The notes below the pieces were generated by a model. That model had not been told where the DNA came from and ran no database searches. It worked only from the letters and a program-made list of their open reading frames with translations. Of a stretch of DNA of 64,000 nucleotides, positions 2,977 to 42,401 are shown in pieces. Source of the DNA: Phycisphaerae bacterium (GTDB lineage Bacteria; Planctomycetota; Phycisphaerae; UBA1845; Fen-1342). Location: positions 62,001 to 126,000 of the forward strand of contig JAUIEC010000008.1 of assembly GCA_030428945.1 (NCBI GenBank), written 5' to 3'. Numbering within the stretch: position 1 is the first letter of the stretch; each line of letters begins with the position of its first letter. The translations under genes were made by a program, and so were the position numbers.

Positions 2977-3059
2977 ACTGGACCCTCGTGAGAGCGGGGG
3001 CAGCCGGCCGCGACCGGGCGGAAGCGCGTGGGCGTGAGCTGGTCGGCGATCTTTGACAA

Positions 3060-3236: not shown

Positions 3237-6048
<2,812 letters not shown>

Positions 6049-24582: not shown

Positions 24583-24931
24583 TCTGATCCTCCTCGAAAT
24601 GGAACAGAGTCGTGCCCGCCGGCGGCGCCCTTCGCTGCCTGGCCGAGATCGCCGATCCGTTCCGCACGACGATCTGCCCGGATGACGGACCAGCCGGCGC
24701 GGTGGCCGGGCAAAATCCGAAAAAACTTCGCCGCGCCCGCCGCCGTCCGGGCCGATCGCGATTGGTTTGCTCGAACGCCCGGCCGGCAGCTCGGCGCGGG
24801 TGTGCCACCGCGATCCTCGTGGTGTCTTTCGGGGTCGTGGGCCGTGAAGCAGATTTGCCAGGCTCCACCCTGAACCCGGTTCGCCCCCGGGTTACAATCC
24901 TCCCCCAATGGGCCCGCGCGCCCGTTTTTTT
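24583..24931. other. Intergenic region before tRNA-Ser
   Basis: It should contain the promoters of the leftward dockerin gene and of tRNA-Ser, but no high-quality promoter is evident. A small GC hairpin with a T-run (GGGCCCGCGCGCCCGTTTTTTT, 24910-24931) sits directly before the tRNA. Confidence 0.4.
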
Positions 24932-25016
24932 GGAGAGGTGGCCGAGCGGCTGAAGGCGGCGGTCTTGAAAACCGCTGATGCGCAAGCATCCGGGGGTTCG
25001 AATCCCTCCCTCTCCG
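24932..25016 (+). tRNA. tRNA-Ser (UGA)
   Basis: A class II tRNA of 85 nt. The acceptor GGAGAGG pairs with CCTCTCC, with discriminator G. Anticodon stem GCGGT/ACCGC carries loop CTTGAAA with anticodon TGA. A long variable arm (TGATGCGCAAGCATC) and T arm GGTTCGAATCC follow. Its 3' end is a likely attachment site because an integrase gene starts 134 bases downstream. Confidence 0.95.
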
Positions 25017-25025
25017 ATTTCTTTG

Positions 25026-25149: not shown

Positions 25150-26529
25150 ATGTCACGCAAGAACCAGTCGTTTCGGACAGGCAAAGTCACCGGGTACCTT
25201 CGTGGAGAGGTCTGGTACCTGTGTTACTACGAGAATGGCCGGCGCTGCCGGCCGCGCGTCGGGACGGACAAGTCCGCCGCCCGACAGCTGGCAGCACAGA
25301 CCAACGCGCAGCTCGCGACCGGCGGGCCGGCACCAATGAGCTTCGTCCCCATCAAGCTCAGTGCGCTGCGCGACCAGTGGCTCGACTACCACGAGGACGT
25401 GCTGCGATCGTCAGTCGCAACCATCCAGCGCTATCGAACCGCCACTGCCCATCTAATCCGGTTTATTGGAGTCACCCGTGGCGTTGAGTTGGCATCGCAC
25501 TTTCGGCCGGCGCATGCCGAAGCGTTCGCGGCGCATCTGCGGCGTGTGAAAGTGGCACCCAACGGACACCCGAACGCGACGAAACGACCGCTGAGCGACA
25601 AGGGCGTCAAGTACATCCTGGAGGTGAGTCGGAGCCTGTTCAACTACGCGGGCCAGCGCCGGCACCTGCCGCCGTATGCCGAGAATCCGTTTTCGGCGAT
25701 CGGGATCGATCGGATCCCGATCGAAGACTCAAAACCGTTCATTGGGCTCACAAGTGATCAGGAGCGGCGCTTCCTGGAATCGTGTGACAACTGGGCGTTT
25801 CCAATCTTCCTGACGCTCATGCTGACGGGTATGCGGCCCGGTGAACTGACGCACGCGCTGTTGCCGAATGACCTCGATCTGGACGGGGGCTGGCTTCACG
25901 TCCGCAACAAGCGCGAGTTGGGCTGGCGGGTGAAGACCCGCAACGATCGCGCTATCCCGCTTGTGCCGGAGTTGATTTCCGTACTCAGGTCGGTGATCGG
26001 CAACCGCGCAGCGGGGCCGGCATTCCTCAGGCGGCGGTACCTCGCCGAGGAGCCACCCGCTCTGGCGTGCCTTACTGAGAACGAGCTCCGGGCCGAACTG
26101 ATCCGCCGCGTTGAATTCAGAACGGCGGACTCCGACGGGTCCATCACGCGCGAGACATCACACCGCATCGCACAACGGTTGTGGCGCGACTGCGGAGCGA
26201 TCAAGACGGACGAAATCCGCACGGCGTTCAAACGACTTACCGGACGGATTGAACTTCCGCACCTGACCGCGCCAATGGTGCTTCGGCACATGTTCGCCAC
26301 AACACTTCAGGACGCGAATGTCGATCCGTTGATCCGCAACCAACTCATGGGGCACGTGTCGGCCGAGCGGCGGGCCACGGCGGGAGGCCTCGGGATGACC
26401 GGCACCTACACGCACACCCGGCCCGAGACTGCCCGGAAACAAATGGCCGCGGCACTCAGCGACCGAGCTGCGCTTGCCGTTGCACGGGAGTGGTTGGCCG
26501 AATGCGCGTGCCGTGGGCGAGAACGCTGA
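25150..26529 (+). CDS. Tyrosine recombinase (integrase)
   Basis: 459 residues. The ATG is preceded by GAGGAG at 7 bases. The N-terminal half has a SAM-like core-binding domain (~65-170). The catalytic domain has the first Arg in LTGMRPGEL, the second Arg in MVLRHMFATTL, the GH of LMGHVSAE and the nucleophile Tyr in TYTHTRPE. The usual His of the HxxR box is replaced by Met (MVLR), a noticeable change. Length and layout fit element-encoded integrases. Its position beside the tRNA-Ser 3' end suggests it integrated the DNA to its right. Confidence 0.88.
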   Translation: MSRKNQSFRTGKVTGYLRGEVWYLCYYENGRRCRPRVGTDKSAARQLAAQTNAQLATGGPAPMSFVPIKLSALRDQWLDYHEDVLRSSVATIQRYRTATAHLIRFIGVTRGVELASHFRPAHAEAFAAHLRRVKVAPNGHPNATKRPLSDKGVKYILEVSRSLFNYAGQRRHLPPYAENPFSAIGIDRIPIEDSKPFIGLTSDQERRFLESCDNWAFPIFLTLMLTGMRPGELTHALLPNDLDLDGGWLHVRNKRELGWRVKTRNDRAIPLVPELISVLRSVIGNRAAGPAFLRRRYLAEEPPALACLTENELRAELIRRVEFRTADSDGSITRETSHRIAQRLWRDCGAIKTDEIRTAFKRLTGRIELPHLTAPMVLRHMFATTLQDANVDPLIRNQLMGHVSAERRATAGGLGMTGTYTHTRPETARKQMAAALSDRAALAVAREWLAECACRGRER

Positions 26530-27159: not shown

Positions 27160-28716
27160 ATGCGACCTTCCTTCGAGGATGCGTGCCGGGACTACGTTCT
27201 GTCCGGGCATGCGTTCCTGCACATTCCCACGAACGAAACGACGCGGCTGCTGGCGAGTCTGCGGTCGCTGGCAGCCGATTTACCACCCGACGGCCGCAGC
27301 GTCTACACCTGGTCGGCTGCGACCGGTTGGCGCGATGCCGATGGCCAGCCTGCCAGGAACGCCGCGGGCGTTGAGCTCGGCGCTCCCAGTCCGCAGACGG
27401 CGCCGCAGCAGATCCTCGAACTGCCTGAGGACTCGCTGTTCGTGCTGCTCGACTTCGAGCCATACCTGCATTCGCGCACCTTCGCGTACTTCGATGTAGT
27501 GCTGGCCTGGCTCAACGAACTGCGGGAGGTCCTCGCCGCTACCAGCCGCACGGTCATCTTCGCCGGCCAGTTGACGGTGCCCGATGCACTGTCCGATGCG
27601 GTCACCGAACTCTCCTTTCCGCTTCCTGACGAGGGCGCGATCGAAACTGCAATCCGTTTCGTTGGTGACGGCCACGAACTGGACGAGGCGGCGCTGCCGA
27701 AGCTCGTCTCGGCCTGCCGGGGAATGACCGAGCAGCAGATCGAAGACCGCACGGCCCTCGCGCTGCGGCGGTTCAAGCGCCTCGACGGCGACGCGGCCAA
27801 CCTGCTGCGCCACGAGAAGGCAGCGGTGATTCGTCGCACCGGCCTGCTGGAGTACCGCGACCCGCCGTCCGGCGGACTCGACCGCATCGGCGGCTGGGAG
27901 AACGTCAAGCAACACGTCCGGCTCGACAAACCGTGCTTCGACAAGGCTGCCCGCGTATTCGGGATCGAGTTCCCACGCGGCTTGCTGCTGGTCGGCATCT
28001 CCGGTGGTGGAAAGACGCAGATGAGCCTCTGCATCGCCAGCTACTTTGATCTGCCGCTGATCCAGCTCGATGTCGGCAGCCTGATGAGCAAGTGGGTCGG
28101 CGAATCCGAACGGAACATGCGCGCCGCGATTCAGTTGCTCGAAGGCATCGGCCCCTGCGTGTTGCAACTGGACGAGATCGAGAAAGGCTTCGGCGGTGTC
28201 GGCGGTGAACAGGATGGCGGCTCCGCGCAGCGCAGTTTCGGCGTTTTTCTGAAATGGATGGGCGATCGCACGTCGCCGGCGTACGTCGTCGCAACGGCGA
28301 ACAACATCGCGGCCCTGCCGGTCGAGTTTCGGCGCAAGGGGCGTTTCGATGAGGTCTTCGGCGTCAACGTGCCGACCTCGGCTGAACGACGCGAGATCTT
28401 CGCGATTCATCTCGGACTGCGCGGCCGGGATGCTGCACAGTTCGACCTCGATGCCCTCGTTGAAGCATCGGACAGCTACACCGGCGCTGACATCAAGGAA
28501 GTCGTCCAGCTTGGTCTCAAGCTCGCGTTTCACCACGGGACGGAACTGGAGTCGCACCACCTGCTGACGGCTTTGCCCGAAGTCCGGCCACTCTCGCAGA
28601 CCGATCCCGAAGCAGTCAGCCAGGTGACCGCCTGGCTGGATGCGCACACGAAGCCCGCCGGCGCTCGGCTGGCGGAACCGTCGAGCAAACAGCGCCGACG
28701 ACCCGTCACTGTCTGA
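27160..28716 (+). CDS. Ycf46-like AAA+ ATPase
   Basis: 518 residues. The N-terminal ~230 residues are a divergent Rossmann-like domain, as in Ycf46. The AAA+ domain (~240-470) has Walker A GISGGGKT (Lys285), Walker B with D338/E339 (VLQLDEIEKGFGG), sensor 1 (VVATANNIAALP) and an arginine-finger segment (RRKGRFDE). The pattern 'VLQLDEIEK..FG.FL.WM..RTSP.YVVATAN' is the Ycf46/Cdc48-like signature. Classical AAA+ proteins are hexameric remodelling or unfolding machines. Being the first large gene of a unit that ends with a ubiquitin-like protein, it may act as an unfoldase for modified targets, by analogy with Cdc48. That role is an inference. Confidence 0.85.
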   Translation: MRPSFEDACRDYVLSGHAFLHIPTNETTRLLASLRSLAADLPPDGRSVYTWSAATGWRDADGQPARNAAGVELGAPSPQTAPQQILELPEDSLFVLLDFEPYLHSRTFAYFDVVLAWLNELREVLAATSRTVIFAGQLTVPDALSDAVTELSFPLPDEGAIETAIRFVGDGHELDEAALPKLVSACRGMTEQQIEDRTALALRRFKRLDGDAANLLRHEKAAVIRRTGLLEYRDPPSGGLDRIGGWENVKQHVRLDKPCFDKAARVFGIEFPRGLLLVGISGGGKTQMSLCIASYFDLPLIQLDVGSLMSKWVGESERNMRAAIQLLEGIGPCVLQLDEIEKGFGGVGGEQDGGSAQRSFGVFLKWMGDRTSPAYVVATANNIAALPVEFRRKGRFDEVFGVNVPTSAERREIFAIHLGLRGRDAAQFDLDALVEASDSYTGADIKEVVQLGLKLAFHHGTELESHHLLTALPEVRPLSQTDPEAVSQVTAWLDAHTKPAGARLAEPSSKQRRRPVTV

Positions 28717-28752: not shown

Positions 28753-29727
28753 ATGACTACCATGACTGCGCCCAGTGCGCAGACTGGCGGCACTGCGCCC
28801 GCAACGGAAGAACCGATCAACCTGTTCAAACTCGGGTGCCTGTTCGTCATCCGGGCCTCGTACTGGTCCTGCCGGATCAGTAACGACCCCGACGACTTCC
28901 AGCTCTCGCCGACCGAGATCGAGAGCCGCGCGATCGCCTCGTTCGGTTCCAAAGATCTGATCGATCCGACCAGGGGGCGAATGGTTTTCCAGCAGTTGGA
29001 ACGGCGAGCGCGCCACGAATTGGCCCGTTTCTCTCGGCCGTTCCCGGCCGCCAGCGCTCACTTCACGCCGTGGCAGCATGTGCCGGAACTGATCGAGCGG
29101 CTCGAAGTCATCCAGTCAGAATTCAACGGGGCCGTAGAGGCGTTCATCGAGAAGTATCCGGAGCTTCGCAGCAACTGGCAGGCCGAGCACCCGGAAGTGC
29201 CGGACTCCGCGTACCCACCAGCCAGCGACCTGCCGCGTCGCTTCAGCCTGGCGTGGCACACGTTCAAGGTGGCCGGAGCCGGCGCCACGGCTGTCGACGA
29301 CATCGAGACCGAACTGGCCGGGCGGAAGATTCGCACCGAGCAGCTCAACCAGATGAAACGCGATCTGCAGGCCGAGTGCCGGCAGTTCTCGGCCGACTAT
29401 GTCGTTGCCTTCAGAAAGGAGGTGGCGGACTTCTGCGACCAGGTCGTCGCGGCTGGCGGCAGTGTGCACGGCAAGACATTGCAGGCGATCCGGCGTCGAA
29501 TCGACAGCTTCAACAGCATGAACATCTTCACCGACTCGGAGGCTGCAAGTGGGCTTGCGCAACTGCGCCAGAGCCTCTTCGGCGTAACGGGCGAGATGCT
29601 CAAACAGCAACCCGACGTGGCGGCCCAACTCAGCGAAGCGTGCAAGACGCTGCGGCATGGACTGCTCGACCCGGACAACATCTCGGCGCTGACAGGCCGT
29701 CTCAAGCGTCGCGTCATTCTTGATTAA
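28753..29727 (+). CDS. DUF3150-like protein
   Basis: 324 residues, ATG after a CAGGAG site. The N-terminal block (FKLGCLFVIRASYWSCRISN, then SPTEIESRAIASFGSKDLID) resembles the conserved start of DUF3150 proteins of plasmids and phages, with a 'SKRLIDP'-like motif and an RRA-type helix after it. The remainder is helical and probably coiled-coil (residues ~190-240). DUF3150 function is unknown. It lies 36 bases after the AAA+ gene, and in elements these two families tend to be neighbours. A substrate-adaptor role for the ATPase is possible. Confidence 0.6.
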   Translation: MTTMTAPSAQTGGTAPATEEPINLFKLGCLFVIRASYWSCRISNDPDDFQLSPTEIESRAIASFGSKDLIDPTRGRMVFQQLERRARHELARFSRPFPAASAHFTPWQHVPELIERLEVIQSEFNGAVEAFIEKYPELRSNWQAEHPEVPDSAYPPASDLPRRFSLAWHTFKVAGAGATAVDDIETELAGRKIRTEQLNQMKRDLQAECRQFSADYVVAFRKEVADFCDQVVAAGGSVHGKTLQAIRRRIDSFNSMNIFTDSEAASGLAQLRQSLFGVTGEMLKQQPDVAAQLSEACKTLRHGLLDPDNISALTGRLKRRVILD

Positions 29728-29756: not shown

Positions 29757-30170
29757 TTGTCACATTTCGTTGAATGCCGACCCGGATTCACCGATCTGGC
29801 GGCGCTCGTGGATGCGCTCGTCGCCGTCGGCTTCGAGCGCGACCAGGTCGAGGTGCATGAACAGTCCGTCGCGCTCTTCGGCTACCAGGGAGACGAACGG
29901 CCGCAGCGCGCCAACGTGGTCATTCGCCGCCAACACGTTGGCCGAGGCGCGAACGACGTTGGCTGGGAGCGATGCAGCGACGGAACGATCCGCTCATGGA
30001 TCAGCGAGTTCGACGCCCGTCACCGTCTTGATGCGTCCATGCAGCGCCGCATTCGCCAGGAGTACGCCTGTGCGGCCGTCACGCGGCAGCAGCAGGCTCT
30101 GGGGCGACAGGTCGAGCGCCGCATGCTGCCGGACGGCGAAATCGAGTTGCAGGTCAGCGGTTACCGCTAG
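29757..30170 (+). CDS. DUF1257 (Ycf35-like) protein
   Basis: 137 residues starting at TTG, fixed by a strong AAAGGAGG site 6 bases upstream and by the family's invariant start MSHF. Other family marks are a central GYQGD turn, the VIRRQHVGRGANDVGW segment, and the late RRIRQEYACAAV helix plus a charged C-terminal strand. DUF1257 is conserved in plastids (ycf35), cyanobacteria and many bacteria but has no firm function. In many genomes it sits beside a Ycf46-like ATPase and a DUF2997 protein, as here. Confidence 0.8.
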   Translation: MSHFVECRPGFTDLAALVDALVAVGFERDQVEVHEQSVALFGYQGDERPQRANVVIRRQHVGRGANDVGWERCSDGTIRSWISEFDARHRLDASMQRRIRQEYACAAVTRQQQALGRQVERRMLPDGEIELQVSGYR

Positions 30171-30190: not shown

Positions 30191-30394
30191 ATGCACCATC
30201 CCACCGTGTGCGTGAGGATCCGCAGCGACGGATCCTGCACGGTCGACGCCAACAACTTTCCCGATTCGAGCTGCCATCAGGTGACCGCGGAGATCCTGAA
30301 GGCTCTTGCCGCAACCCAAACGCGCGAGTTCGACAAACCCGAGGCACGGGCCATGCGGAGCGTCGAGCGCGGGCAACGAGAGTCATCACGATGA
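30191..30394 (+). CDS. DUF2997-like small protein
   Basis: 67 residues, ATG after AAAGGAGA. The pattern fits DUF2997: a short beta-hairpin (VCVRIRSDGSCTVDANNF), a Ser-Cys pair and helix (SSCHQVTAEILKALA), then a K-P-E-A end. DUF2997 proteins commonly sit next to DUF1257 proteins, exactly as here. Its stop overlaps the next ATG (ATGA), showing translational coupling. Confidence 0.65.
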   Translation: MHHPTVCVRIRSDGSCTVDANNFPDSSCHQVTAEILKALAATQTREFDKPEARAMRSVERGQRESSR

Positions 30395-30663
30395 CGCGCC
30401 TTCGAATCGGCGGCGAAGGTGTCATCCGAAGTCTGTGGTTCGACGAGATCGATCTCGCCTCCCTCGGCACGGTACACGTTCAGCGTGCCAGCCACGTCGA
30501 GTTCGACACAGCTCGGCAGTGCTGGACCGTCGTACCCGCCAGTACGCGATCGGTCGTCTTTTCGTCTCGATCGCGAAGTGAAGCCCTTGCCTGGGAGGCC
30601 GAGCACTTCCAGCCCGGTGGCCGCTTCTGGCCGCCATCCATCGAAAGAGAAAGGAGAACATGA
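30391..30663 (+). CDS. 90-residue unknown protein
   Basis: It is coupled to the DUF2997 gene by an ATGA overlap. The predicted fold is a small beta-rich domain (IRSLWFDEIDLASLG, ASHVEFDTARQCWTVV) followed by a helix (RSEALAWEAEHF), like small beta-alpha proteins seen in planctomycete elements. No family name can be given. The next ORF again overlaps as ATGA. Confidence 0.6.
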   Translation: MTRLRIGGEGVIRSLWFDEIDLASLGTVHVQRASHVEFDTARQCWTVVPASTRSVVFSSRSRSEALAWEAEHFQPGGRFWPPSIERERRT

Positions 30664-31495: not shown

Positions 31496-31738
31496 ATGCG
31501 CGTTCTGTACATCAACAACGACGGTGGCGGCTTCGCCGATTTCATCAACGTGCCCGACGGCCAGGCCGTCTCGGACTTCTTCGCGGAGCGAATGACTGAC
31601 GAAGATGCGGGCGAATACCTGATCCGAGTTAACCGCCAGCCAGTCGCCCGCGACCAGAAACTGCGTGACGGTGACCGGATCAGCATCACGCCGGTAAAGA
31701 TCGAGGGTGCCCTGGCTGGTGAGATTCCATCTGCCTGA
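31496..31738 (+). CDS. Ubiquitin-like beta-grasp (ThiS/MoaD-type) protein
   Basis: 80 residues, ATG after an AACGGAG site. The layout is a beta-grasp: an N-terminal hairpin ([20 protein letters not shown]), a helix ([10 protein letters not shown]), then [10 protein letters not shown] and the ThiS/Ubl signature turn [11 protein letters not shown]. In ThiS, MoaD and ubiquitin-like modifiers this fold ends in Gly-Gly for activation by an E1. Here the end is KIEGA followed by LAGEIPSA, so no terminal Gly-Gly is present and trimming may be required. It closes unit 1. Unit 2 supplies E2-, peptidase- and E1-like proteins, so it is the natural candidate modifier. Confidence 0.75.
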
Positions 31739-31754
31739 CGAACCAGCGTCCACC

Positions 31755-31782
31755 TTAATTTGAGGGCGAATCGCGCCATAGT
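31755..31782 (+). promoter_or_regulatory. Promoter of cassette unit 2
   Basis: CCACC-TTAATT (31755-31760), a 16-base spacer and CATAGT (31777-31782). This mirrors the unit 1 promoter in sequence and spacing. Confidence 0.6.
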
Positions 31783-31825
31783 AAGAAAATACGAATCCTG
31801 ACGTCGCGCACCCGCCCAATCTGCA

Positions 31826-31869
31826 CCGGGCGCCTGCCTCATACCGAAGCAGGCGCCCGGACCCTTTTC
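31826..31869 (+). terminator. Promoter-proximal terminator or attenuator of unit 2
   Basis: A perfect 12-bp stem (CCGGGCGCCTGC / GCAGGCGCCCGG) with an 11-base loop is followed by ACCCTTTTC, between the promoter and the first gene. This is the same placement as in unit 1. Confidence 0.7.
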
Positions 31870-31883
31870 AGAAGGATACTCCG

Positions 31884-32867
31884 ATGCAACCACGCCCACT
31901 GCTACGCTGCGCCCGGCGCATCGCAGCGGCACTCGAACCGCCACCAGCCCCTGACACAGACCTCGAACGATACCTCGTCGAAAGCATCGAGATGATCACC
32001 CGTATCCGAGATCAGCACAGCAGGCGTCGCCGCGCCGCCGAGCACGGCTGGAAACTCGCGGCCGGCCGGATCCGCAGCCATATCGAACGCGATCTGGCCG
32101 CGGTCGGCGACATCCTGAACCGTTGCCGCATCGCACTCGCTCCGTCCCCGCGTAGACCGAGTCTGTGTGAGATCTACGCCGAAGTCACACAACTGGCCGA
32201 CGAGTTCGCCGAAGTGCGCTACGATGGGCATCAACGCTGCGTCATCGTGGTCACCGATCCGATCACCCTGCACGAAACACCGCTCGGCCGATTTGAGGTC
32301 TCGCTGCCGGTCGCTGCGTTACCCCGGCCCGCAGCCGCCGTCCGCGTGCGGGCCCTCGACCCGAATCCGGCCGGCGCCAATCCCGAAGTCACGCACCCGC
32401 ATGTGTCCAGCGAACGACTCTGCTGCGGGGACGGCGGTGCTCCCCTGAACAGTGCCCTGATGTCCCATCGGCTCTGCGACGCCGCTCTGATCGTGCGGTC
32501 GATACTGGGGCACTACAACCCTGACTCCGCATACGTCGCCTTAGAGGACTGGCATGGCGTGCCCTGCAGCGAATGCGATTGCACGGTTGCCGAAGACGAT
32601 GCCGAAGCGTGCCAGAACTGCAGCGACCGCTTCTGCGAAGATTGCACGCGGCTCTGCAGTTGCTGCGACGATGTGACCTGCCTCAGCTGTGCCGGCACCT
32701 GCGAGTCCTGCCGCGAGCGCTGCTGCGAGCCGTGCCTGCACCCCTGCGAAACCTGCGAAGAGACAACCTGCGAAGGCTGCCTGGAAACGGGCAACTGCCC
32801 AGCCTGCCGTGAACAACAGGAGGAAGACGATGCCGCGAACAACGAACAGGCTCTGCTGGCCGACTGA
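31884..32867 (+). CDS. E2-like (UBC-fold) protein fused to a cysteine-rich zinc-binding tail
   Basis: 327 residues. An N-terminal helical part (~1-95) is followed by a UBC-like fold: strands [11 protein letters not shown] and GRFEVSLPV, then [14 protein letters not shown] (171-184) and a helix ending at EDW (to 223). HP(N/H)V followed nine or ten residues later by Cys is the E2 active-site pattern, making C180 or C181 the likely thioester cysteine. The tail (228-308) has 23 cysteines in repeated C-x2-C pairs, like treble-clef or RING-type zinc modules, so E2 and E3-like activities may be joined in one chain. It is the first gene of unit 2 and overlaps the JAB gene by 38 bases. Confidence 0.75.
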
Positions 32868-33537
32868 ACCGCCAGCTGCTCTCGACAGCGACGACGCACC
32901 AGTGTTGCGTTTCACACCGCCCGCCTGGGCCAAGCTGCTCTACCTGCGTGACGCCGGCCCGACCGAAATCGGCGCGTTCGGCATCACATCAGCTGACGAT
33001 CTGCTGCGAGTCGAGGAGATCGCGACCGTCGCACAGACCGCCTCGGTTGCCAGCGTCGCCTTCGACGACGCGGCCGTGGCAGACTTCTTCGACGACCAGA
33101 TTGATCAGAGCCGCCGCCCGGAGCAGTTCGCGCGGATGTGGATCCACACCCACCCCGGCGACTCGGCCGATCCGAGCTCCGTCGACAAATCCACCTTCGC
33201 GCGTGTCTTCGGCCGGTGTGATTGGAGCGTGATGTTCATCCTTGCCCGCGGCGGCGACACGTACGCTCGGCTGCAGTTCAGCGTGGGCCCCGGCGGCTCG
33301 CTGCAGATCCCCGTAGCAATCGACTACAGCCGAGCGTTCCCCGGCTCCGACGCCGCAAACTGGCAGGCCGAGTACGAGCGAAACGTCACGCCGCAGCGGC
33401 AGCCCGCACGAATCGGCAGGGCAGAGCGTGCGAGCGCCTTGTTCGACGACCACGATCTCCTCACCGACGACCTGAACGATCCGGACGATCCGTCAGCGAT
33501 CACCGCCGACTACGACCCTTGGGAGGACATGCATTGA
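32830..33537 (+). CDS. JAB/MPN (JAMM) metallopeptidase
   Basis: 235 residues. The ATG at 32830 has a strong AGGAGG site and lies inside the end of the E2-like gene. The JAMM zinc site is intact: Glu46 in EIGAFG, and H106-x-H108-x10-D119 within [23 protein letters not shown] proteases cleave isopeptide bonds of ubiquitin-like modifiers or process their C-termini. In this context the enzyme may mature the Ubl encoded at 31496 and remove it from targets. The last ~65 residues are acidic and variable. Its stop overlaps the TTG start of the E1-like gene (TTGA). Confidence 0.88.
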
Positions 33538-34286
33538 AACACCCCGACCGCGATCTCCGCCAGCGCGAGATCATTCCACCCGACCGGCTCGCAGCAACCA
33601 GCGCGACAGTAATCGGCGTCGGCGCCGTCGGCCGCCAGGTCGCCCTGCAACTCGCCGCGATCGGCGTACCGCGCCTGCACCTGATCGACCACGACATCGT
33701 CGAACCGGTCAACCTCGGCCCGCAGGGCTACTTGGCCGAAGACATCGGCCGCCCGAAGGTCGACGCGACGGCCGAACTCTGCCACCGCCTGAACCCCGAG
33801 TTCGAACTGACGACCACACCTCGCCGCTTTCTTCGGAGCCAGCAGCTCAACAGCGCAGTGTTCTGCTGCGTCGACTCGATCCGCACCCGCGGCCTGATCT
33901 GGCAGGCCGTCGCACGAGCGCTGGCAGCAACGCCACATCTGGCGACATTGGACGCGCGACGTGGACGAGTCATGTTCTTCGCAGACGCCCGCATGTCCGG
34001 CGAAGTCATCCGAATCCTGGCCGCCGCGGACGCGATCTCAGTCGCCCACTATTCGAACACACTGTTCCGCCAGGAGGAGGCATTCGTCGGCACCTGCACC
34101 GCCCGCAGCACAGTCTTCACGGCCAACATTGCCGCCGGCCTGATGATCCACCAATTCGCCCGTCACCTCCGCGGCCTGCCCACCAACGCCGATCTGGTCT
34201 TGAACCTGCTCGCCAGCGAGATCACGGCACACCCAACCAGCACGATGAAGAGGAGCTCCGATGCCCCGCAACAGAACTCTGTTTGA
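33534..34286 (+). CDS. ThiF/E1-like adenylyltransferase
   Basis: 250 residues from a TTG start preceded by GGGAGG at 7 bases and overlapping the JAB stop (TTGA). The Rossmann ATP site is GVGAVG (28-33), with acidic residues D52/D54 ([12 protein letters not shown]), N60, Q64 and K75 and then D114 (CCVDSIRTR). A candidate catalytic Cys is C188 (GTCTARST). E1/ThiF enzymes adenylate the C-terminus of a Ubl and transfer it to a Cys. The usual Arg of the N-x-x-R/Q motif is missing (NLGPQGY). It is single-domain, smaller than eukaryotic E1, as in bacterial systems and PRTRC-type ThiF proteins. It closes unit 2. Confidence 0.88.
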
Positions 34287-34352: not shown

Positions 34353-34808
34353 TCAGCGCGTCGCTTCGCCGCCGAGGTTCAGGAGCTTGCGGAGCACGCG
34401 AGGTTTTTTGCGGACAATGTCTTCGAGTGTCTGTTTATTGAGGACGTCGATGAACGCGCGGAGCGCCTTTTGGATCTGGCCGCGGAGTGCGCAGGCGGAT
34501 CCGATGCAGCATTTGCTGCGACCCGGGTCAAAGCACTCGACCAGTCGGAAATCCGGCTCCATGTCGACCACCACCTGGCCAACGCGAATGTCCTCGGGAT
34601 TGCGGGCCAGGGCGATCCCGCCACCCTTGCCGCGGGCGACGGTGATGTAGCCCCGTGCCCGGAGATCGTTGATCACCTTGAGCAGGTGGTTGAGGGAGAT
34701 TCCGTATGTCTTGGCGACCTCACCGGTCGGCACGGGTTTTTCCGGCCGCTGGGCGGCCAGGTAGATCAGGGTTCTGAGGGCGTAGTCGGTGTGCGACGTG
34801 ATTCTCAT
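34353..34808 (-). CDS. nsrR: Rrf2-family NsrR-like NO-sensing repressor
   Basis: 151 residues. The winged helix (~1-70, with SHTDYALRTLIYLAAQ and TYGISLNHLLKVINDL) is followed by the Rrf2 cysteine cluster (CFDPGRSKCCIGSACALRG), which in NsrR holds an Fe-S cluster destroyed by NO. This loss relieves repression of NO-defence genes. A TACAAT -10 element ends 8 bases before the ATG at 34808, so the message may be leaderless. An ATG 9 bases upstream is an alternative start. It directly precedes the truncated-haemoglobin operon, its expected target. Confidence 0.8.
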   Translation of the reverse strand: MRITSHTDYALRTLIYLAAQRPEKPVPTGEVAKTYGISLNHLLKVINDLRARGYITVARGKGGGIALARNPEDIRVGQVVVDMEPDFRLVECFDPGRSKCCIGSACALRGQIQKALRAFIDVLNKQTLEDIVRKKPRVLRKLLNLGGEATR

Positions 34809-34870
34809 GGGGCCCATTGTAACACGCGACGTGCTGCCCGACGCCAAGGCCCGGGATCAACGAGGACGCA

Positions 34871-35863
34871 TCATGCTGTGGCCACCGGCGTCGGTGTCGG
34901 AAGAAACGGATCCGCGAGGATATCGACGGAAGCGACTCCGGCGATGAAGAGCGCTCGTTGCAGCTTGCTGACGATCGCGGGGTCACCGCACAGAAAAGCC
35001 CGTGGCGCCGCGGCCAGCGATTTGGTCACCTCGTGAGCACAGGCATCCAGTGGTTGATTGGTGATTGGCCCGACGTCGGAGCCCTCCAGAGCGCACAGAT
35101 GCAAGCGGAGTTGCCCCTCCGTCGCGCGGCAGAGCTCACCAAGTTCATCAATCAAGTAGAGGCGGTCCGCTCGCAGCGCCCCCTGCAGCAGGTGAATCGG
35201 GCCGCGGTGCCCTTGGGCGAGCGCATCGCGCAGGATACCCCACAGGGGCGAAAGCCCGGTTCCTGTCCCGGCCAGGATCAGCGGGCGATCCACGTCGCCG
35301 TCGTCTCCGGGCAGGTAGTAGCAGGTTCCGTTCGGGCCACGCACCTCAAGCTCCGCGCCTGGTTGAAGAGTGCAGAGCCAGTTGCTCACCAGCCCGCCGG
35401 GAATACGGCGCACATGTATCTCGAGGAAGTCCTCGGCCGTGACGCTGGCCAGCGAGTAGCTCCGCAGCGCGCCGTCCGGGTGGCGGACGTTGACGAACTG
35501 GCCTGGCCGGTAGGCAAACGAGTCGCGCGCGACGAATCGCAACCTGGCGATTCCCTCGCCGATGGATTCGCTCGACTGCAGCACGCACCTGATCGGCGCG
35601 GCGCCGGCCACGCTGGACAGTGTCACGCGTTCTTTCGGATACGCCTGGCAGGCCAGAAAGAATCCCTGTTCGGCCAGCGAGGGCTTGAGGCCGGCCTGTG
35701 CGTCCGGCGGCGCGGGCGTGCCCTGAACCAGGCAGGCCTGGCAGTGTCCCGCCCGGCAGGAGTGATCCACCGGGCGCTCGTGGCGCAGCAGGCAGTCGAG
35801 CACGGACTCCCCGGGAAGCAGCGGCAGGTTTTCTCCGTCGATGGTTACGGTCGGCGCAGTCAT
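34871..35863 (-). CDS. 2Fe-2S ferredoxin-FAD/NAD(P)H reductase
   Basis: 330 residues. An N-terminal plant-type 2Fe-2S ferredoxin has the cysteines CRAGHCQACLV plus a fourth in GFFLACQAYP. Next is an FAD-binding domain (RSYSLAS) and an NAD(P) domain (LAGTGTGLSPLWGIL, LCGDPAIV). This is the layout of phenol-hydroxylase and methane-monooxygenase-type reductases. Its start overlaps the haemoglobin stop (ATGA), so it is translated with it. It probably supplies electrons to the truncated haemoglobin to recycle it after NO oxidation. Confidence 0.85.
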   Translation of the reverse strand: MTAPTVTIDGENLPLLPGESVLDCLLRHERPVDHSCRAGHCQACLVQGTPAPPDAQAGLKPSLAEQGFFLACQAYPKERVTLSSVAGAAPIRCVLQSSESIGEGIARLRFVARDSFAYRPGQFVNVRHPDGALRSYSLASVTAEDFLEIHVRRIPGGLVSNWLCTLQPGAELEVRGPNGTCYYLPGDDGDVDRPLILAGTGTGLSPLWGILRDALAQGHRGPIHLLQGALRADRLYLIDELGELCRATEGQLRLHLCALEGSDVGPITNQPLDACAHEVTKSLAAAPRAFLCGDPAIVSKLQRALFIAGVASVDILADPFLPTPTPVATA

Positions 35864-36225
35864 CGATTCAACACGTCCTTTCGTGTCGATTCGGCGAGGG
35901 CGGCGACTTCCTGAACTTCAGCCTGGCCGACGCCGAGTGACTCGAGCGTCGCGGTCAGATGTTCGACAACGGCATCGACGTGTTCATCCGCGAGACCACC
36001 GTCGACGAGGTGCTTGTGCGCCTGACGCAGGTCCTGGCCTGAATACTCGGCCGGGCCGCCGGTCACGAACGTCAGAAACGAACGCTGTTTGGCGATCTGC
36101 GCATCCATGTCGACGCCTTCGAAGAACTTCGCGACGCGATCATCCGTCAGGATGCGACGGTAGAAGTCATCGACGGCCGCCTGCATGGCCGGGGCGCCAC
36201 CGAGCCTCTCGAACAATGAACTCAT
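35860..36225 (-). CDS. Group 1 truncated haemoglobin
   Basis: 121 residues. The ATG at 36225 is preceded by GAGGAG at 5 bases. It shows the trHbN pattern: LFERLGG, the B-helix FY (DDFYRRILTD), FLTFVTGGP and the proximal His segment AHKHLVDGGL. Such proteins convert NO plus oxygen to nitrate when a reductase is present. Being coupled to a ferredoxin reductase and next to an NsrR-like repressor makes NO dioxygenase activity the best guess. Confidence 0.88.
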   Translation of the reverse strand: MSSLFERLGGAPAMQAAVDDFYRRILTDDRVAKFFEGVDMDAQIAKQRSFLTFVTGGPAEYSGQDLRQAHKHLVDGGLADEHVDAVVEHLTATLESLGVGQAEVQEVAALAESTRKDVLNR

Positions 36226-36305
36226 TTCTTCTCCTCGTGATTGCAAAGCGGAAAAGCGACTCGCTCTGCGGGTGCAACGTTGTTGTCCAGTTCCTGACCG
36301 CCAAA

Positions 36306-36326
36306 ACTGGTATTGTCAATACCAGT
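36306..36326. promoter_or_regulatory. Perfect palindromic operator
   Basis: ACTGGTATT-GTC-AATACCAGT is a perfect 9-3-9 inverted repeat at the shared edge of the haemoglobin operon and the divergent MarR-like gene. It overlaps the haemoglobin -10 box, fitting a repressor site. The binding protein may be the NsrR-like or the MarR-like regulator. Confidence 0.75.
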
Positions 36327-36352
36327 ATAAGAGCGGATGGTGCGTCCAGCAA
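36325..36352 (-). promoter_or_regulatory. Promoter of the haemoglobin-reductase operon
   Basis: TTGCTG (36347-36352), a 16-base spacer and TATACT (36325-36330) on the minus strand, with the palindrome covering the expected transcription start. Confidence 0.5.
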
Positions 36353-36984
36353 GCCGCGCGCGTCGACGGAAACACTGGGCGGCTGCACCGGCTGGAGTCA
36401 GTGCGGGCCTGGCGGTCATCGCGGGATCGGCCGCTCCAATCGGACTGGGCGGCCTGGCCGAGCAGCTTGCGATCACCGCCGGGACGACGAGTGCGACGGT
36501 AACGACTCTGGTCGGGAAAGGGCTTGTCGCGAAACGCCGACGAAAAACAGACCGGCGGGAAGTGCAACTGAAACTGACGGCGAAAGGAAAGCGGGTGGCT
36601 GCATCCGCGGGAGAGTGGCCGGAGGCAGTCCTGGCTGCTGCGGCGGCACTTTCCCAGGGCGATCAGGCAGGCCTTGTTCGAGGACTGATTGCCTTGATTC
36701 GCGAGTTACTGGAGCGCGGGGCCGTTCCTACCGCGCGCATGTGTGTGGGCTGCCGGTTCTTTCGGCCAAACGAGTATCCGACTGGAGCGAAGCGCCATCA
36801 CTGTCAGTATATCGATGCACCGATTGGTGACAGTGATTTGCGTGTCGAGTGCGCCGAGATGGAGCCAATTGAAGCAGAACTCGCCCCGCGCTTGTGGAAC
36901 TTATTCGTTAAAGGCAGATCGCTCGGTACAGAGCTGCAGATGCCTGAAGAACAGGAAATGCGGGGAAGAGGGCGTGTGCGATGA
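36337..36984 (+). CDS. MarR-like regulator with a cysteine/histidine tail
   Basis: 215 residues. The winged helix is at about 40-100 (LAEQLAITAGTTSATVTTLV, then KRRRKTDRREVQLKLTAKGK), as in MarR proteins, though the N-terminal dimer helix looks short. An in-frame stop 9 bases upstream fixes the start region. The C-terminal part carries C-x2-C and H-x-C (CVGCRFF and HHCQYID), a likely metal or Fe-S site. It starts 10 bases after the palindrome and is divergent from the haemoglobin operon. Redox sensing is plausible. Confidence 0.7.
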   Translation: MVRPASRARRRKHWAAAPAGVSAGLAVIAGSAAPIGLGGLAEQLAITAGTTSATVTTLVGKGLVAKRRRKTDRREVQLKLTAKGKRVAASAGEWPEAVLAAAAALSQGDQAGLVRGLIALIRELLERGAVPTARMCVGCRFFRPNEYPTGAKRHHCQYIDAPIGDSDLRVECAEMEPIEAELAPRLWNLFVKGRSLGTELQMPEEQEMRGRGRVR

Positions 36985-37083
36985 GATCGCGAGCTTGAAA
37001 CCTGTCGCTTTTCGAAGTCGTTGCTCGGAGCCGGTGGACCGGCTCCGAGTTGTTTTCCCGCGGACAAACAAGGAGCCATTACC

Positions 37084-37323
37084 ATGTCGACGAAAGCCAC
37101 ATTCTACCATGCTGGATGCCCGGTGTGTGTTGACGCTGAGCGGACCGTGGCCGAAGGACTTGATCGGGCGCGATTCGATGTAGAGATCGTGCATCTGGGC
37201 GATCACGCTGATCGAGTTGCTGAGGCTGAGAGATTCGGTGTGAAGTCTGTGCCCGCCCTCGTCATTGACGCGCAGGTCTATCACATCAACCACGGTGCTG
37301 ATCTGTCGGCACTCAAGGGTTGA
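37084..37323 (+). CDS. Glutaredoxin-like thioredoxin-fold protein
   Basis: 79 residues, ATG after CAAGGAG. The fold starts with ATFYHAGCPVCVDAE, giving a CPVC redox motif at the start of the first helix, and has the cis-Pro turn SVPAL. It looks like a small thiol-disulphide or metal-handling protein. It follows the MarR-like gene on the same strand and ends at a strong hairpin. Confidence 0.75.
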   Translation: MSTKATFYHAGCPVCVDAERTVAEGLDRARFDVEIVHLGDHADRVAEAERFGVKSVPALVIDAQVYHINHGADLSALKG

Positions 37324-37339
37324 CCTGAAATCCGGCGAA

Positions 37340-37365
37340 GGGCTTCGGCGAACAAGCCGAAGCCC
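37340..37365. terminator. Hairpin after the glutaredoxin-like gene
   Basis: GGGCTTCGGC and GCCGAAGCCC form a perfect 10-bp stem with a 6-base loop, without a T-run, between convergent genes. Confidence 0.5.
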
Positions 37366-37606
37366 GCGCGCTGTTGCATGACTCCGGTGGGCGTGCTCCC
37401 AAGTCTCCAGCGGCAAGTCACTGCAGCCCTGGCATAAGCGAAGTGCAATCACTTCGCCGAGCTGCCCGGTGCCGTCTTGGCCCGGATCGTCGCAAGACAC
37501 GAAAAGTTCGGTCGGCCCGTGGCAGCGCTGGCTGGCACCGCGGATCATCGTCGGACAAACGGACGCCAGCGTTGTGGGACGATCGGCGCCCTGCCGCTGA
37601 GGGGTG
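37366..37606. other. Intergenic region between convergent genes
   Basis: About 240 bases after the hairpin up to the TDT transporter stop. No convincing gene or signal seen. Confidence 0.3.
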
Positions 37607-38719
37607 TTAACGGACCAGGCCCTCGTCCCCCCGCCTGGCCAGCAGGCGCGTCAGGACTTCGTGAGCCAGCCCGAGAAAGGCGGTGGCCCAAGCGGCCAGC
37701 GCGATCCAAAGGAAGACGGCCGCGATGGATGCGAGGAAGGGCAGGTCGATTGCTTCAGCCAGGCGCCAGGTACAGGCCGTGTACATGCCGAGCGGAAAGA
37801 CGGCGCCCCAGTAGAGCGGGTCGTATGCCAGCGGGAAGCGGCGGAATCCGTGCCGCCAGACGCCGAGGATCACCAGCATCGGAATCCACCACGTGGCGGT
37901 GGCCCAGAAGAACAGCGTGAATCCCTTCAGAAAGGGAAGGAACTGCTGCAACAGGGCCGAGCCAGGCGTTGCGCTGATGAGCATGGTGCCGGCCAGCGTG
38001 GAGATCGCCATGGCGCCCATGTTGATCCAGTACGGTGGCGCGAGCTCGGACGGTTCGAGCGGGAAGAAGGTGTAACGATAGAAGATCAGCGAAATGATCC
38101 AGATGTAGAGCATGCCGCCGCCAAGCCACATCGCAAGCGAGAAGAACAGCGCGAGTTCCTGACTGTCCGGATGAAGGCCATGTGCGAGCTGAGTGCCCAG
38201 GACGCTGACGGACTGCGTGGCGACCACCGCCACCAGCCAGCCGCCGTTGATTCCCTTTGCCAGCGCGGGCTTGTTGGCCTTGACGGTCAGGATCGTGAAA
38301 ACTGTGTAGGTCAGCAGGCACCACAAGACGATTCCCAGGCACCACAACGCCGTTGCGATGGATCGATTCGACAGGACCAGCAGGAACTGGCTACCGAGCA
38401 CGCACGTGCCGGCCACGGTTGTGAAGAAGCCCACGCAGCGCCCGTGGTCGAAGAGGTCGGCGAGCATGCGACCTGCGAACAGCGTAGCGCGCACGACGGT
38501 AAGCGTTACCAGGACCACATAGAAGACGACGTTCAGAACGAGCAGGCCGTGCCCGATGGCGCCCAGGCCCAGGAGATGCGACGCAATCGAAACGATCCCC
38601 GTCGCCATCACCAGTGCGAAGTACGCCGGGTGCAGTCCCGCGACCCCATCGAGGATACGGGGCCAGACCGCTGAAGCAGACGGCGTTGCCTGGGATGGGG
38701 GCTCGCGCGAAGGGCTCAT
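37607..38719 (-). CDS. TDT-family (TehA/SLAC1-like) membrane transporter
   Basis: 370 residues. The start at 38719 overlaps the upstream stop (ATGA), and a longer in-frame start is less likely. About ten hydrophobic spans are visible, beginning with FALVMATGIVSIASHLLGL, which is typical of the tellurite-resistance/dicarboxylate transporter family of five helical hairpins. Family members move small anions such as nitrate, chloride, sulphite or malate. In this operon, anion movement linked to the nitrate-reductase-like complex is possible but unproven. Confidence 0.8.
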   Translation of the reverse strand: MSPSREPPSQATPSASAVWPRILDGVAGLHPAYFALVMATGIVSIASHLLGLGAIGHGLLVLNVVFYVVLVTLTVVRATLFAGRMLADLFDHGRCVGFFTTVAGTCVLGSQFLLVLSNRSIATALWCLGIVLWCLLTYTVFTILTVKANKPALAKGINGGWLVAVVATQSVSVLGTQLAHGLHPDSQELALFFSLAMWLGGGMLYIWIISLIFYRYTFFPLEPSELAPPYWINMGAMAISTLAGTMLISATPGSALLQQFLPFLKGFTLFFWATATWWIPMLVILGVWRHGFRRFPLAYDPLYWGAVFPLGMYTACTWRLAEAIDLPFLASIAAVFLWIALAAWATAFLGLAHEVLTRLLARRGDEGLVR

Positions 38720-38937
38720 CGCTCCAGCCGGTACAGTTGCCACAGCAGGCCGGTATTCAAAAGGAAGCAAACCAGACTGGCCCCGGCCGCGGGCCAGATA
38801 ACCGCCTGGTCGCCACCCAGATGGGCGTTCATGGTGGCGGTCAGCAGCCAGAGCTGCAGGACGACCAGAATGAGAACGATGCAGAGGATCCCCGAGACGA
38901 TCGTGGTGAGCTGTTCACGCTTGGCGCTGCGCTTCAT
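38716..38937 (-). CDS. Small two-span membrane protein
   Basis: 73 residues, linked by ATGA overlaps to the Rieske gene before and the transporter gene after. Two membrane helices (IVSGILCIVLILVVLQLWLL and WPAAGASLVCFLLNTGLLW) are joined by a short polar loop. It is probably an accessory subunit of the neighbouring membrane redox complex. No family recognised with confidence. Confidence 0.6.
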   Translation of the reverse strand: MKRSAKREQLTTIVSGILCIVLILVVLQLWLLTATMNAHLGGDQAVIWPAAGASLVCFLLNTGLLWQLYRLER

Positions 38938-39476
38938 GTTGTTCGCTCCTCGACGCCCTCGGCGTAGAGTTGTCCGTCACGTGATGCGATCAGAATCCTG
39001 GGAAGCGGGCGGCGCGGCGGTCCGGCCAGGGGCCGGCCGGTCGTCAGTTCGAAGAAGCCATGGTGACACGGACACCGGAAGACCCCCGCCGCAACGTCCG
39101 GCAGCACAGCGCACGACAGGTGCGTGCACTTGCTTCCGTAAGCCAGAAAGGTGTCCTCGGCCGTTCGAACCAGCAGGCAGGCGTCGTGCGGACCGGGATA
39201 GTTGAACGATACGGCGGTGCCGACCGGGATGTCACCGACGGCTGCGATCCGCCGCGACTCGAACTTGCGGCCGCGGCGTAGCGTGTTGAGCATTCCGATC
39301 CAGCCCTGCCCCACGACGAAGGCAAAGCTGGTCAGCACCATGAACTTCGTGAAGTCGCGCCGCGCGACGTAGTTATCCTCTGGCACATCGATCGGAAAGT
39401 CGCGCCGCCACTTCGGTTGCTGATCCCACGGGGCGCCATCGGGTGTCAGGACGGGCAGTGATACGTTCTTCCGCAT
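38934..39476 (-). CDS. Rieske [2Fe-2S] protein
   Basis: 180 residues. One membrane helix (~46-65) is followed by the Rieske domain with box 1 C117-T-H119-L-S-C122 and box 2 C135-P-C137-H138-H. Ligands are C117, H119, C135 and H138, with C122/C137 forming the usual disulphide. Anchored in the membrane, it can pass electrons between quinol and a partner. It sits in an operon with an Fe-S ferredoxin, a molybdoenzyme and a cytochrome b, so it is probably an electron-transfer subunit of that complex. Confidence 0.88.
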   Translation of the reverse strand: MRKNVSLPVLTPDGAPWDQQPKWRRDFPIDVPEDNYVARRDFTKFMVLTSFAFVVGQGWIGMLNTLRRGRKFESRRIAAVGDIPVGTAVSFNYPGPHDACLLVRTAEDTFLAYGSKCTHLSCAVLPDVAAGVFRCPCHHGFFELTTGRPLAGPPRRPLPRILIASRDGQLYAEGVEERTT

Positions 39477-39480
39477 GCGC

Positions 39481-40119
39481 TTACTCTCCTGTTCGCGGAC
39501 TTGTGCCGATTACGGACAGTGCGATGCGCCGTCCGGTCGGCCCGGCTTCCATGGCCGCGGTGACGTCGACGTACTCCGGCCTGGATTCCGGGACCATCAT
39601 GTGGACCCTGGTCGTGACCACCTGTTCTCCGAAGCGGAAGCGATTAATCGATTGCGCCTGCGGTCGCAGGGCCTCGATTTCCTCGTGTGTTCCGAAAAAC
39701 AGCGCCTGGCTCGGGCAGACGCTGGCACACATCGGCTTCTTGCCGACCGAGGTGCGGTCGTAGCACATGTCGCACTTCATCATCAGCTCGAGCTCGACCT
39801 TCATTTTCGGTACGCCGAACGGGCAGGCGAGCACGCAGTTGCTGCATGCGATGCAGTGCGGCTTGCGGGCACTCTGAACGACACCGTCGGCCGATCTCTT
39901 GATCGCATCCGCCGGGCAGACCTCCGCGCACGTGGGCGAGTGGCAGTGCATGCAGATCACCGGTGCCGTCTGTGTCGACTGGGCGCGATCGACGTACTCC
40001 AGATGGATCATCGAGTGGCCCTTGTGGGTATCACACTCACCACACGCCTGAACACACGCCTGGCACCCAATGCAGCGGCTTGGATCAATGAAGAAGTCCA
40101 TGTTCTCGGGAACTGCCAT
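39481..40119 (-). CDS. 4Fe-4S dicluster ferredoxin (DmsB/NrfC/FdhB-like)
   Basis: 212 residues with four cysteine clusters: [11 protein letters not shown], the [14 protein letters not shown] block, [14 protein letters not shown] and [21 protein letters not shown]. They should hold three to four [4Fe-4S] clusters. Such subunits relay electrons between a membrane cytochrome and a molybdopterin enzyme. The molybdoenzyme gene lies 33 bases upstream in transcription order. No signal peptide is seen, so the complex may be cytoplasmic-facing. Confidence 0.88.
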
Positions 40120-40152
40120 GACTGTCCTCTGCGGGCCAACTTCCGGCGCGAA

Positions 40153-42399: not shown

Positions 42400-42401
42400 G
42401 C

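Follow-up and report, generated by a model that had tools for sequence, protein, structure and literature searches.

In Bil, as far as the accessible part of its report describes it, BilA possesses two ubiquitin-like (Ubl) domains, BilB a CEHH motif, and BilD an inactive together with an active adenylation domain (PMC11354881). The operon types 6a-6e of Iyer 2006, according to the available portion of that paper, contain E1, E2-like, and JAB genes, often on mobile DNA, with a Ubl in types 6d and 6e; E1 is fused to E2 or JAB in types 6a-6c, type 6d has an E2 without an upstream His and a JAB with its own N-terminal domain, and type 6e combines a polyUbl with an E2 that is inactive and a JAB fused to E1 (PMC1779556). 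CBASS type II (Cap2/Cap3), for its part, encodes an E1-E2 fusion. Bub corresponds to Iyer type 6e, and PRTRC, a set that also includes ParB, has a ThiF-like E1 near other Ubl-system parts. Furthermore, Burroughs 2011 reportedly defined the RING-type operon, in which a UQ_con-type E2 is accompanied by a separate RING, and may already list part of the set presented here.

The locus studied here lies in the window, by which we mean the whole 64,000-nucleotide stretch of DNA that was analysed. With a probability of roughly three in four, we read it as a compact operon for Ubl conjugation, travelling among bacteria, mobile elements, and large phages.

Results

Between positions 31496 and 34286 the plus strand of the window holds four adjacent open genes in the order Ubl, E2, JAMM, E1, exactly as an earlier note on this DNA had proposed. 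All four families co-occur in 58 of the 69 loci that were fetched (the viral loci L057 and L059, on the same contigs as L047 and L052, were left out), and the earlier note's suggestion to look for the same gene order elsewhere was borne out by 57 of these 58 complete loci, E1 being displaced in the remaining one. As the loci were retrieved via one cassette gene, only the presence of the other three families is informative; nevertheless, the recurrence of the four together is beyond chance, and in a later viral scan all four were found at 21 of 21 loci. A scan of genome contigs with a single E1 yielded 10 distant relatives. In plasmid records the E1 query gave 21 matches, none covering 80% of the query, and the JAMM query gave no match; among named phages, the JAMM query likewise had no match and a phage-type E1 query found 75 records.

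The Ubl (31496..31738, +) is an 80-aa protein with a single beta-grasp domain, in which Gly71 is followed by nine residues. Its alignment (14 rows, with L037 omitted and the L035 Ubl trimmed by us ahead of a run-on tail) displays 19 invariant columns, and its AlphaFold2 model, a beta-grasp with a pLDDT of 84, returned five matches at E <= 0.001 in a Foldseek search of the PDB (best 3e-4), Caldiarchaeum ubiquitin being among the structure matches. The protein resembles ThiS/MoaD, with a Pfam ThiS score (0.006) below the Pfam cut-off. Relatives' Ubls also have a tail beyond the conserved Gly, as expected if the Ubl is trimmed; in L178 and L180 the Ubl lacks the terminal Gly, as does one of the two Ubls in L172. 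Of the 13 other rows, 12 have a shorter tail than the window's Ubl, and the remaining one is the trimmed L035.

The JAMM peptidase (32830..33537, +) carries E46, H106xH108, and S116xxD119, the intact E..HxH..D of the earlier note, and all of these catalytic residues are invariant in 14 rows (L037 omitted). Its refined start, ATG at 32830, is preceded by AGGAGG; Pfam Prok-JAB matches at 5e-4, below the Pfam cut-off, and the best PDB match of its profile is an Rpn11-like protein of Caldiarchaeum (7e-4). The E1-like ThiF-fold enzyme (33534..34286, +; 250 aa; PF00899, 2.8e-23) has a refined TTG start at 33534, preceded by GGGAGG, at which TTGA overlaps the JAMM stop. Its alignment (11 rows) contains one invariant Cys, C188, and the window's enzyme has a 16-residue insert not seen in the 10 other rows. 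The E1 of L035 has ThiF as its best NCBIfam match (8e-16) and a weak match to PRTRC_ThiF (4e-7).

The E2-like protein (31884..32867, +; 327 aa) consists of a helical start, a UBC-like part with H171-P-H173 and Cys180, and a cysteine-rich tail. HPH and C180, forming the motif HPH-x6-C, are invariant in alignments of 15 rows (partial L041 and L045 omitted) and of 11 rows, and the E2 of L180 is without HPH. No Pfam family matches the protein, PDB profile searches with the full-length sequence and with the UBC part alone retrieved no E2, and the best PDB structure match of its model (pLDDT 77) is below significance (E 0.13). Against BFVD the model gave three matches at E <= 0.001, two of which are unnamed giant-virus proteins and uninformative. 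An hhalign comparison of the E2 profile with true planctomycete E2s (UQ_con; L185 and L189 omitted from their alignment) reached E 1.7e-6, controls with the JAMM and E1 profiles being null. On the invariant HPH and Cys and this profile match, with the fold search alone non-significant, we assign the protein by its sequence to the E2/UBC superfamily, with the His-Pro-x...Cys site and a predicted UBC fold. Of the family names in the earlier note, namely ThiF/E1, Prok-E2, JAB, and ThiS-like, ThiF is clear, JAB and ThiS stay under the cut-off, and the E2 has no Pfam match; the structure prediction it had recommended recovered the beta-grasp of the Ubl and no significant fold match for the E2. The tail, absent from that note, contains 23 Cys at 228-308, 19 of them invariant in 15 rows (about 20 conserved); it is probably zinc-binding and perhaps a built-in E3.

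Bil (BilABCD) shares with the cassette separate Ubl, E2, JAMM, and E1 genes in that named order as well as a patchy distribution. Because BilABCD has the same four parts, at least in the accessible part of its report (PMC11354881), the four-gene set is not distinct in itself, and what survives of the earlier claim that it is unlike known ones is the difference in protein architectures and in the AAA/DUF module. In comparison with the Bil features given in the text available, the cassette Ubl is one domain rather than the two of BilA, its E2 has HPH-x6-C instead of CEHH, and its E1 is a single ThiF domain instead of the two adenylation domains of BilD, on which grounds membership in Bil was rejected; the cassette furthermore adds the cysteine-rich tail and an ATPase module. 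PADLOC Bil models gave no BilC or BilB match for the cassette proteins, and the E1 matched BilD at 3e-6 versus CBASS E1-E2 at 1e-15. CBASS type II was rejected as well, since the cassette genes are separate and the E1-E2 models match the E1 only. The Iyer types 6a-6e, to the extent of their available description, share E1, E2-like, and JAB genes with the cassette, plus a Ubl in 6d and 6e, whereas the cassette genes are separate in contrast to the fusions of 6a-6c; type 6d was rejected on the HPH upstream of Cys180, and Bub/type 6e on the separate JAMM and E1, the one Ubl, and the retained Cys180. RING-type operons of planctomycetes and Caldiarchaeum also unite E1, E2, JAMM, and Ubl, but their E2 is a true UQ_con protein with HPN where the cassette has HPH. 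UQ_con E2s occur in 26 of 246 genomes of the phylum, two genomes (G435 and G583) having a match away from the cassette; the RING-type operon was rejected because the window's own genome has no UQ_con match and no separate RING gene was identified.

The mobile block of the earlier note is supported by a tyrosine-type integrase, a patchy distribution, and the tree, but no element ends were found. The integrase (25150..26529, +; PF00589, 4e-11) starts 132 bases from an adjoining tRNA-Ser gene (24931-25017), of whose end no second copy was found in the window or the rest of its contig. GC is 0.62-0.66 in the block versus 0.65-0.71 at 6-25 kb, and it stays at 0.60-0.66 onward to the window end, so that GC marks no right border. 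In the tree (nine duplicate loci removed, together with rows in which JAMM and E1 were not both present and long enough) the window cassette stands apart from cassettes of its own family, and the phage label switches at least five times. The full set is present on 26 distinct virus contigs, a spread in large phages which the earlier note had not foreseen. Close to viral cassettes lie genes for terminase, DNA polymerase, ligase, and UvsX-like proteins. The cultured phage crAss001 and Flavobacterium phage Fpv1 are read as having a diverged version, with E1 and JAMM clear and putative Ubl and E2 recognized by eye; in crAss001, which is grown in the laboratory on Bacteroides intestinalis, the genes in question are gp76-gp79, gp78 and gp79 being the candidates for E2 and Ubl. 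The literature search, with most subscription papers and preprints outside its reach, found no paper on the exact set or on a four-gene phage; the crAss papers among the matches listed do not contain 'ubiquitin', 'ThiF' or 'JAMM', which does not prove absence.

Upstream of the cassette sits a five-gene module encoding an AAA ATPase (27160..28716, +; PF00004, 8e-21; 9e-56 against the bacterial-neighbour profile), a DUF3150 protein (28753..29727, +; PF11348, 5e-21), a DUF1257 protein (29757..30170, +; PF06868, 5.7e-5, above the cut-off), a DUF2997-like protein (30191..30394, +), and the small conserved protein u1 (30391..30663, +). The DUF2997-like protein weakly matches the profile of neighbour cluster c11 (0.0045), which includes one PF11211 member, and is 42-48% identical to counterparts in genome G016, whose fetched stretches hold all five genes without the cassette; u1 matches neighbour cluster c8 (5e-11) and is 37% identical to an ORF of phage contig L168. 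The window AAA is 43-46% identical to AAAs of 119-181 kb phage contigs. AAA was rejected as a cassette marker because 123 of 298 genomes of the class have such a protein, mostly at 31-43% identity. Among the neighbours of 68 loci, AAA occurs in 14 and a GHKL-type ATPase, standing with DUF2958 beside some cassettes, in 12, never both; an AAA-like and VWA pair adjoins the cassette in three virus contigs.

Discussion

Conservation, motifs, the beta-grasp model, and the E2 profile match support the predicted roles of modifier, E2, deconjugase, and E1. One conserved operon holds all four, with catalytic residues invariant across the alignments, and Ubl conjugation by the cassette is likely. In the mechanism we propose, the JAMM would cut the tail of the Ubl off after Gly71; the E1, which is small and probably acts as a ThiF-like homodimer, would adenylate the Ubl, hold it on Cys188, and hand it to Cys180 of the E2, whose tail would hold targets instead of a separate E3; later, the JAMM would take the tag off, and the adjoining ATPase module may remodel tagged complexes.

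As to its purpose, our leading guess, tentative as it is, is a service to the phage or element, either takeover or counter-defence, ahead of host defence. A Bil-like anti-phage defence, in which an infection would set off the tagging of virion or host proteins, appears rather unlikely: it would fit the four parts as in the available account of Bil (PMC11354881) and the patchy spread, and PADLOC models for Cas3, type III methyltransferase, and GajB had two matches each among neighbours (102 neighbour proteins of 173 candidates), but these are raw counts uncorrected for background, the Bil models do not single out the cassette, and the full set is borne by many virus contigs. The three kinds of ATPase gene adjoining cassettes would suit protein quality control, the tag marking proteins for the ATPase and perhaps a protease; we consider this improbable, as no protease gene was identified among the eight proteins of the window block (by crude gene calling) and the ATPase module can occur alone.

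Least probable is a sulfur-carrier pathway, in which a ThiS/MoaD-like protein, ThiF, and JAMM would serve a small molecule with no protein tagging. The resemblance of the Ubl to ThiS/MoaD and the ThiF match of the L035 E1 speak for it, but the E2 in the operon is conserved and has both an active-site cysteine and the cysteine-rich tail, no biosynthesis gene was seen beside the cassette, and phages carry it. Whatever the family does, the window copy itself might be decaying and inactive, to which the E1 insert and the long Ubl tail could point; against this, the frames are open, all catalytic residues are kept, and ribosome-binding-like sites and the start/stop overlap are present, making decay improbable too.

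Returning to phage or element service, we further hypothesize, at slightly less than even odds, that complete Ubl systems are encoded by large tailed phages, the cultured gut phage crAss001 among them, and serve to tag proteins of the host or the virion in infection, that bacterial cassettes including the window's exchange with this phage pool, and that the E2 has its own zinc array and works as E2 and E3 in one chain. If so, phages that tag proteins in the manner of ubiquitin would have a tool of a new kind for phage-host conflict or virion building, and the targets and purpose of bacterial Ubl operons would become testable with a cultured gut phage. The DUF2997-DUF1257 pair of cyanobacteria, so far unexplained, is now placed in an ATPase module often adjoining tagging enzymes; DUF1257 is identified as ycf35 in the accessible part of an earlier paper (PMC4284462).

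The cassette and its conservation

An earlier note had placed genes for a ubiquitin-like protein (Ubl), an E2-like protein, a JAMM peptidase and a ThiF/E1-like enzyme in that order within a mobile block, and gene calling recovered this order at that place, all on the + strand: Ubl at 31496-31738, E2 at 31884-32867, JAMM at 32830-33537 and E1 at 33534-34286. The overlap is 38 bases between E2 and JAMM and four (TTGA) between JAMM and E1, with a ribosome-binding-like site before both downstream starts. ThiF was a strong Pfam match (2.8e-23), Prok-JAB (5e-4) and ThiS (0.006) matched below the Pfam cut-offs, and the E2 protein had no Pfam match. Upstream, on the same strand, lies an integrase gene 132 bases from tRNA-Ser, followed on that strand by genes for an AAA protein, DUF3150, DUF1257, a DUF2997-like protein and u1, and by the small ORFs u2 and u3.

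The gene order recurs elsewhere. Among 69 loci with a cassette match (57 bacterial, the window included, and 12 viral), all four families were present in 58 (48 of the 57 bacterial, 10 of the 12 viral), and 57 loci kept the order Ubl-E2-JAMM-E1, E1 being displaced in the remaining one. The E2 query matched in 14 of 200 relatives, and the JAMM profile in 35 of 397 class genomes and 15 of 392 phylum genomes, the window's own genome counted each time. In that genome the 16S probe site matches the target of EUB338-II, a probe for Planctomycetota. Genome G635, outside the class, holds six JAMM matches of the cassette family (L142, L144, L147, L148 and others). At locus L036 (3619-19901) the cassette is stretched, with about 5 kb from Ubl to E2 and about 9 kb from JAMM to E1, and at L033 (2885-4843) the start of the Ubl gene is abutted by an ORF for a reverse transcriptase of the group II intron type.

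Overall, the cassette is real and conserved and encodes a probably active system for Ubl conjugation, one that forms a separate subfamily. Citing Burroughs 2011, PMC4197634 places related operons in Actinobacteria, Planctomycetes and Acidobacteria, and the present family may be among them. For Bub operons, PMC13373217 describes protection against phages as not demonstrated.

Features of the four proteins

The predicted Ubl structure (pLDDT 84) is a beta-grasp, as had been claimed, with five PDB matches at E <= 0.001 (Mth1743, an RNF subunit, SUMO2, a MoaD-like protein and Caldiarchaeum ubiquitin). An alignment of 14 Ubl rows has 19 invariant columns, the last being Gly71, after which most rows carry Ala and 0-3 further residues and the window nine residues. 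Gly71 is also invariant in a 12-row set with viral Ubls; the wider viral scan shows Ubls without it in L178 and L180, and one of the two in L172 also lacks it.

The JAMM peptidase has its E..HxH..D motif intact as previously noted, E46, H106, H108 and D119, together with S116, being invariant in 14 rows. Likewise, the ThiF/E1-like assignment holds by both the Pfam match and the residues invariant in 11 rows, namely the glycine loop, D52, K75, D114 and C188, the last presumably at the position of the ThiF cysteine; a 16-residue insert is found only in the window E1 among these rows.

The model of the E2-like protein (pLDDT 77) follows the UBC order, from a helix through strands and an active-site loop to two helices, but the best PDB structure match, UFC1, was not significant (E 0.13), and profile searches of the PDB found no E2. 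True UQ_con E2s are present in 26 of 246 phylum genomes and absent from the window's own, and hhalign aligned the cassette E2 profile with them at probability 90 and E 1.7e-6, with HPH on HPN, Cys on Cys and YNxxSP matched, whereas the control JAMM and E1 profiles reached probabilities of 0.2 and 0.1. Neither H171-P-H173 nor Cys180 varies among 15 bacterial rows or among 11 rows made up of the window and viruses, and an HPH...C E2 match occurs in 20 of the 21 loci of a later viral scan (exception, L180). Furthermore, the window E2 tail holds 23 cysteines at 228-308, 19 of the tail cysteines being invariant in 15 rows, mainly as CxxC pairs, with weak matches to B-box, ZZ, RING and FYVE types; the tail would probably bind zinc and may serve as an E3.

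Genomic context

Neighbour genes in 68 loci were called with a home-made codon model, so that misses are expected. Type A context, as in the window, is defined by a window-type AAA (14 loci); type B by one or both of DUF2958 (20 loci) and a GHKL-type ATPase (12 loci). Neither B gene was called at any type A locus, and in three virus contigs their place is taken by a VWA/DUF2201 protein together with an ATPase that is AAA-like by a weak Pfam match. Against profiles built from neighbour genes, the window gave good matches for AAA (9e-56), u1 (5e-11) and the integrase (9e-53), weak ones for DUF3150 (0.006), the DUF2997-like gene (0.005) and DUF1257 (0.025), and nothing below E 0.6 for u2 and u3. 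A PADLOC scan of 102 of the 173 neighbour proteins, with no background set for comparison, yielded Cas3, type III methyltransferase and GajB-like matches (two each), mad8 (four) and HerA (three).

The module AAA-DUF3150-DUF1257-DUF2997-u1 occurs in the same order twice in genome G016 and once in G021, with 65-72% (AAA) and 57-64% (DUF3150) identity to the window; the AAA frame of G021 is broken. Neither G016 module has a cassette within the fetched 12 and 9 kb, the cassette of that genome lying on another contig, and in G021 a cassette E1 lies 5 kb upstream of the module. AAAs of G007 and G050 are 57-60% identical to the window's, with no further module gene recognised there. Virus contigs L161, L163, L164 and L168, of 119-181 kb, have an AAA with 43-46% identity to that of the window ~2-8 kb behind E1, followed by DUF3150 in L161, L163 and L168; DUF1257 is present in L161 and L168, and L168 also has u1 and a DUF2997-like ORF. 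L053 has a more distant AAA, with just 30% identity to that of the window.

Phage copies and exchange

The cassette has a wide phage reservoir, which lay beyond the reach of the earlier note. Virus status was taken from IMG/VR and hallmark genes: the terminase model matches four of the 12 viral records and adjoins the cassette in L049, L051 and L055, a DNA polymerase cluster occurs in L047, L050 and L052, and 56 flank proteins include RNA ligase, a UvsX-like recombinase and DNA ligase, with transposase matches too. Scanning IMG/VR with the E1 profile gave 21 loci, all with the four families (E <= 1e-3); since five of these were contigs met before, 26 distinct virus contigs carry the full set, including two near-identical pairs. 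In L166, L167, L169 and L171 the Ubl gene reads as a tandem of two or three Ubl domains, and the cassette is preceded, a few kb upstream, by another E1-like ORF. Two Ubl genes and three E2-like matches occur in L172.

Querying named phages with an E1 of viral type gave matches in 75 records out of 50,697, none reaching 60% identity, and four were inspected. In three of them, Bacteroides phage crAss001 (gp79-gp76), bajarodcaudo virus 1 and Flavobacterium phage Fpv1 (gp58-gp53), the order is a protein with a Ubl-like start, an HSHV/HSHL...C-x-G protein, JAMM (motif HSHN...SGTD) and E1. In Fpv1 (L240, 2659-4951) an endonuclease gene on the opposite strand splits JAMM in two. In addition to E1, Xanthomonas phage PhiXhv-12 (L239, 1751-5627) encodes an HPH...C protein of 892 aa whose end is rich in cysteine, and no JAMM was seen in the seven translated of its twelve features; an ORF ending in GG reads as a Ubl, as if no trimming were needed. 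Cassette HMMs were scored on crAss001, bajarodcaudo and PhiXhv-12 in a 17-protein set, for which E-values are lenient: E1 reached 3e-36, 5e-41 and 1e-34, respectively, JAMM 0.07 and 0.007, and Ubl and E2 were not detected (best 0.25). Because the HMMs do not detect them, Ubl and E2 in these phages are a motif reading, with motifs chosen after viewing them; out of 5000 shuffles, the E2 motif appeared in 0 for crAss001 gp78, in 4 for the bajarodcaudo protein and in 13 for that of PhiXhv-12, and the JAMM motif in 5 and 13 of 5000.

Exchange of the cassette between bacteria and phages has happened, without being rampant. In a tree built by a quick method from 72 rows of JAMM+E1 and rooted at the midpoint, the phage label changes at least five times, four of them forced by starred branches, versus 19.5 in shuffles. 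The window groups with type-A bacteria, on unstarred branches with supports of 83-90, and apart from L032 and L033, which are type-B cassettes from its own family; two type-A loci, L139 and L140, fall with viruses. Virus rows are the most diverse in this tree.

Other features of the window

GC falls to ~0.54 at 3001-6000 (0.60-0.71 elsewhere in the window), and no ORF of >=140 aa lies between about 2951 and 6273. Nearby, two neighbouring, similar ORFs (1089-1820 and 2040-2768, - strand) carry a sorting tail whose motif we take to be PEP-CTERM-like. By ORF reading, 63210-63983 (-) resembles a second tyrosine-recombinase-type protein. Behind the cassette, on the opposite strand (34353-43547, -), ORFs read by eye like an Rrf2 regulator, ferredoxin reductase, truncated haemoglobin, a TDT-type transporter, Rieske and 4Fe-4S proteins and a molybdopterin oxidoreductase.
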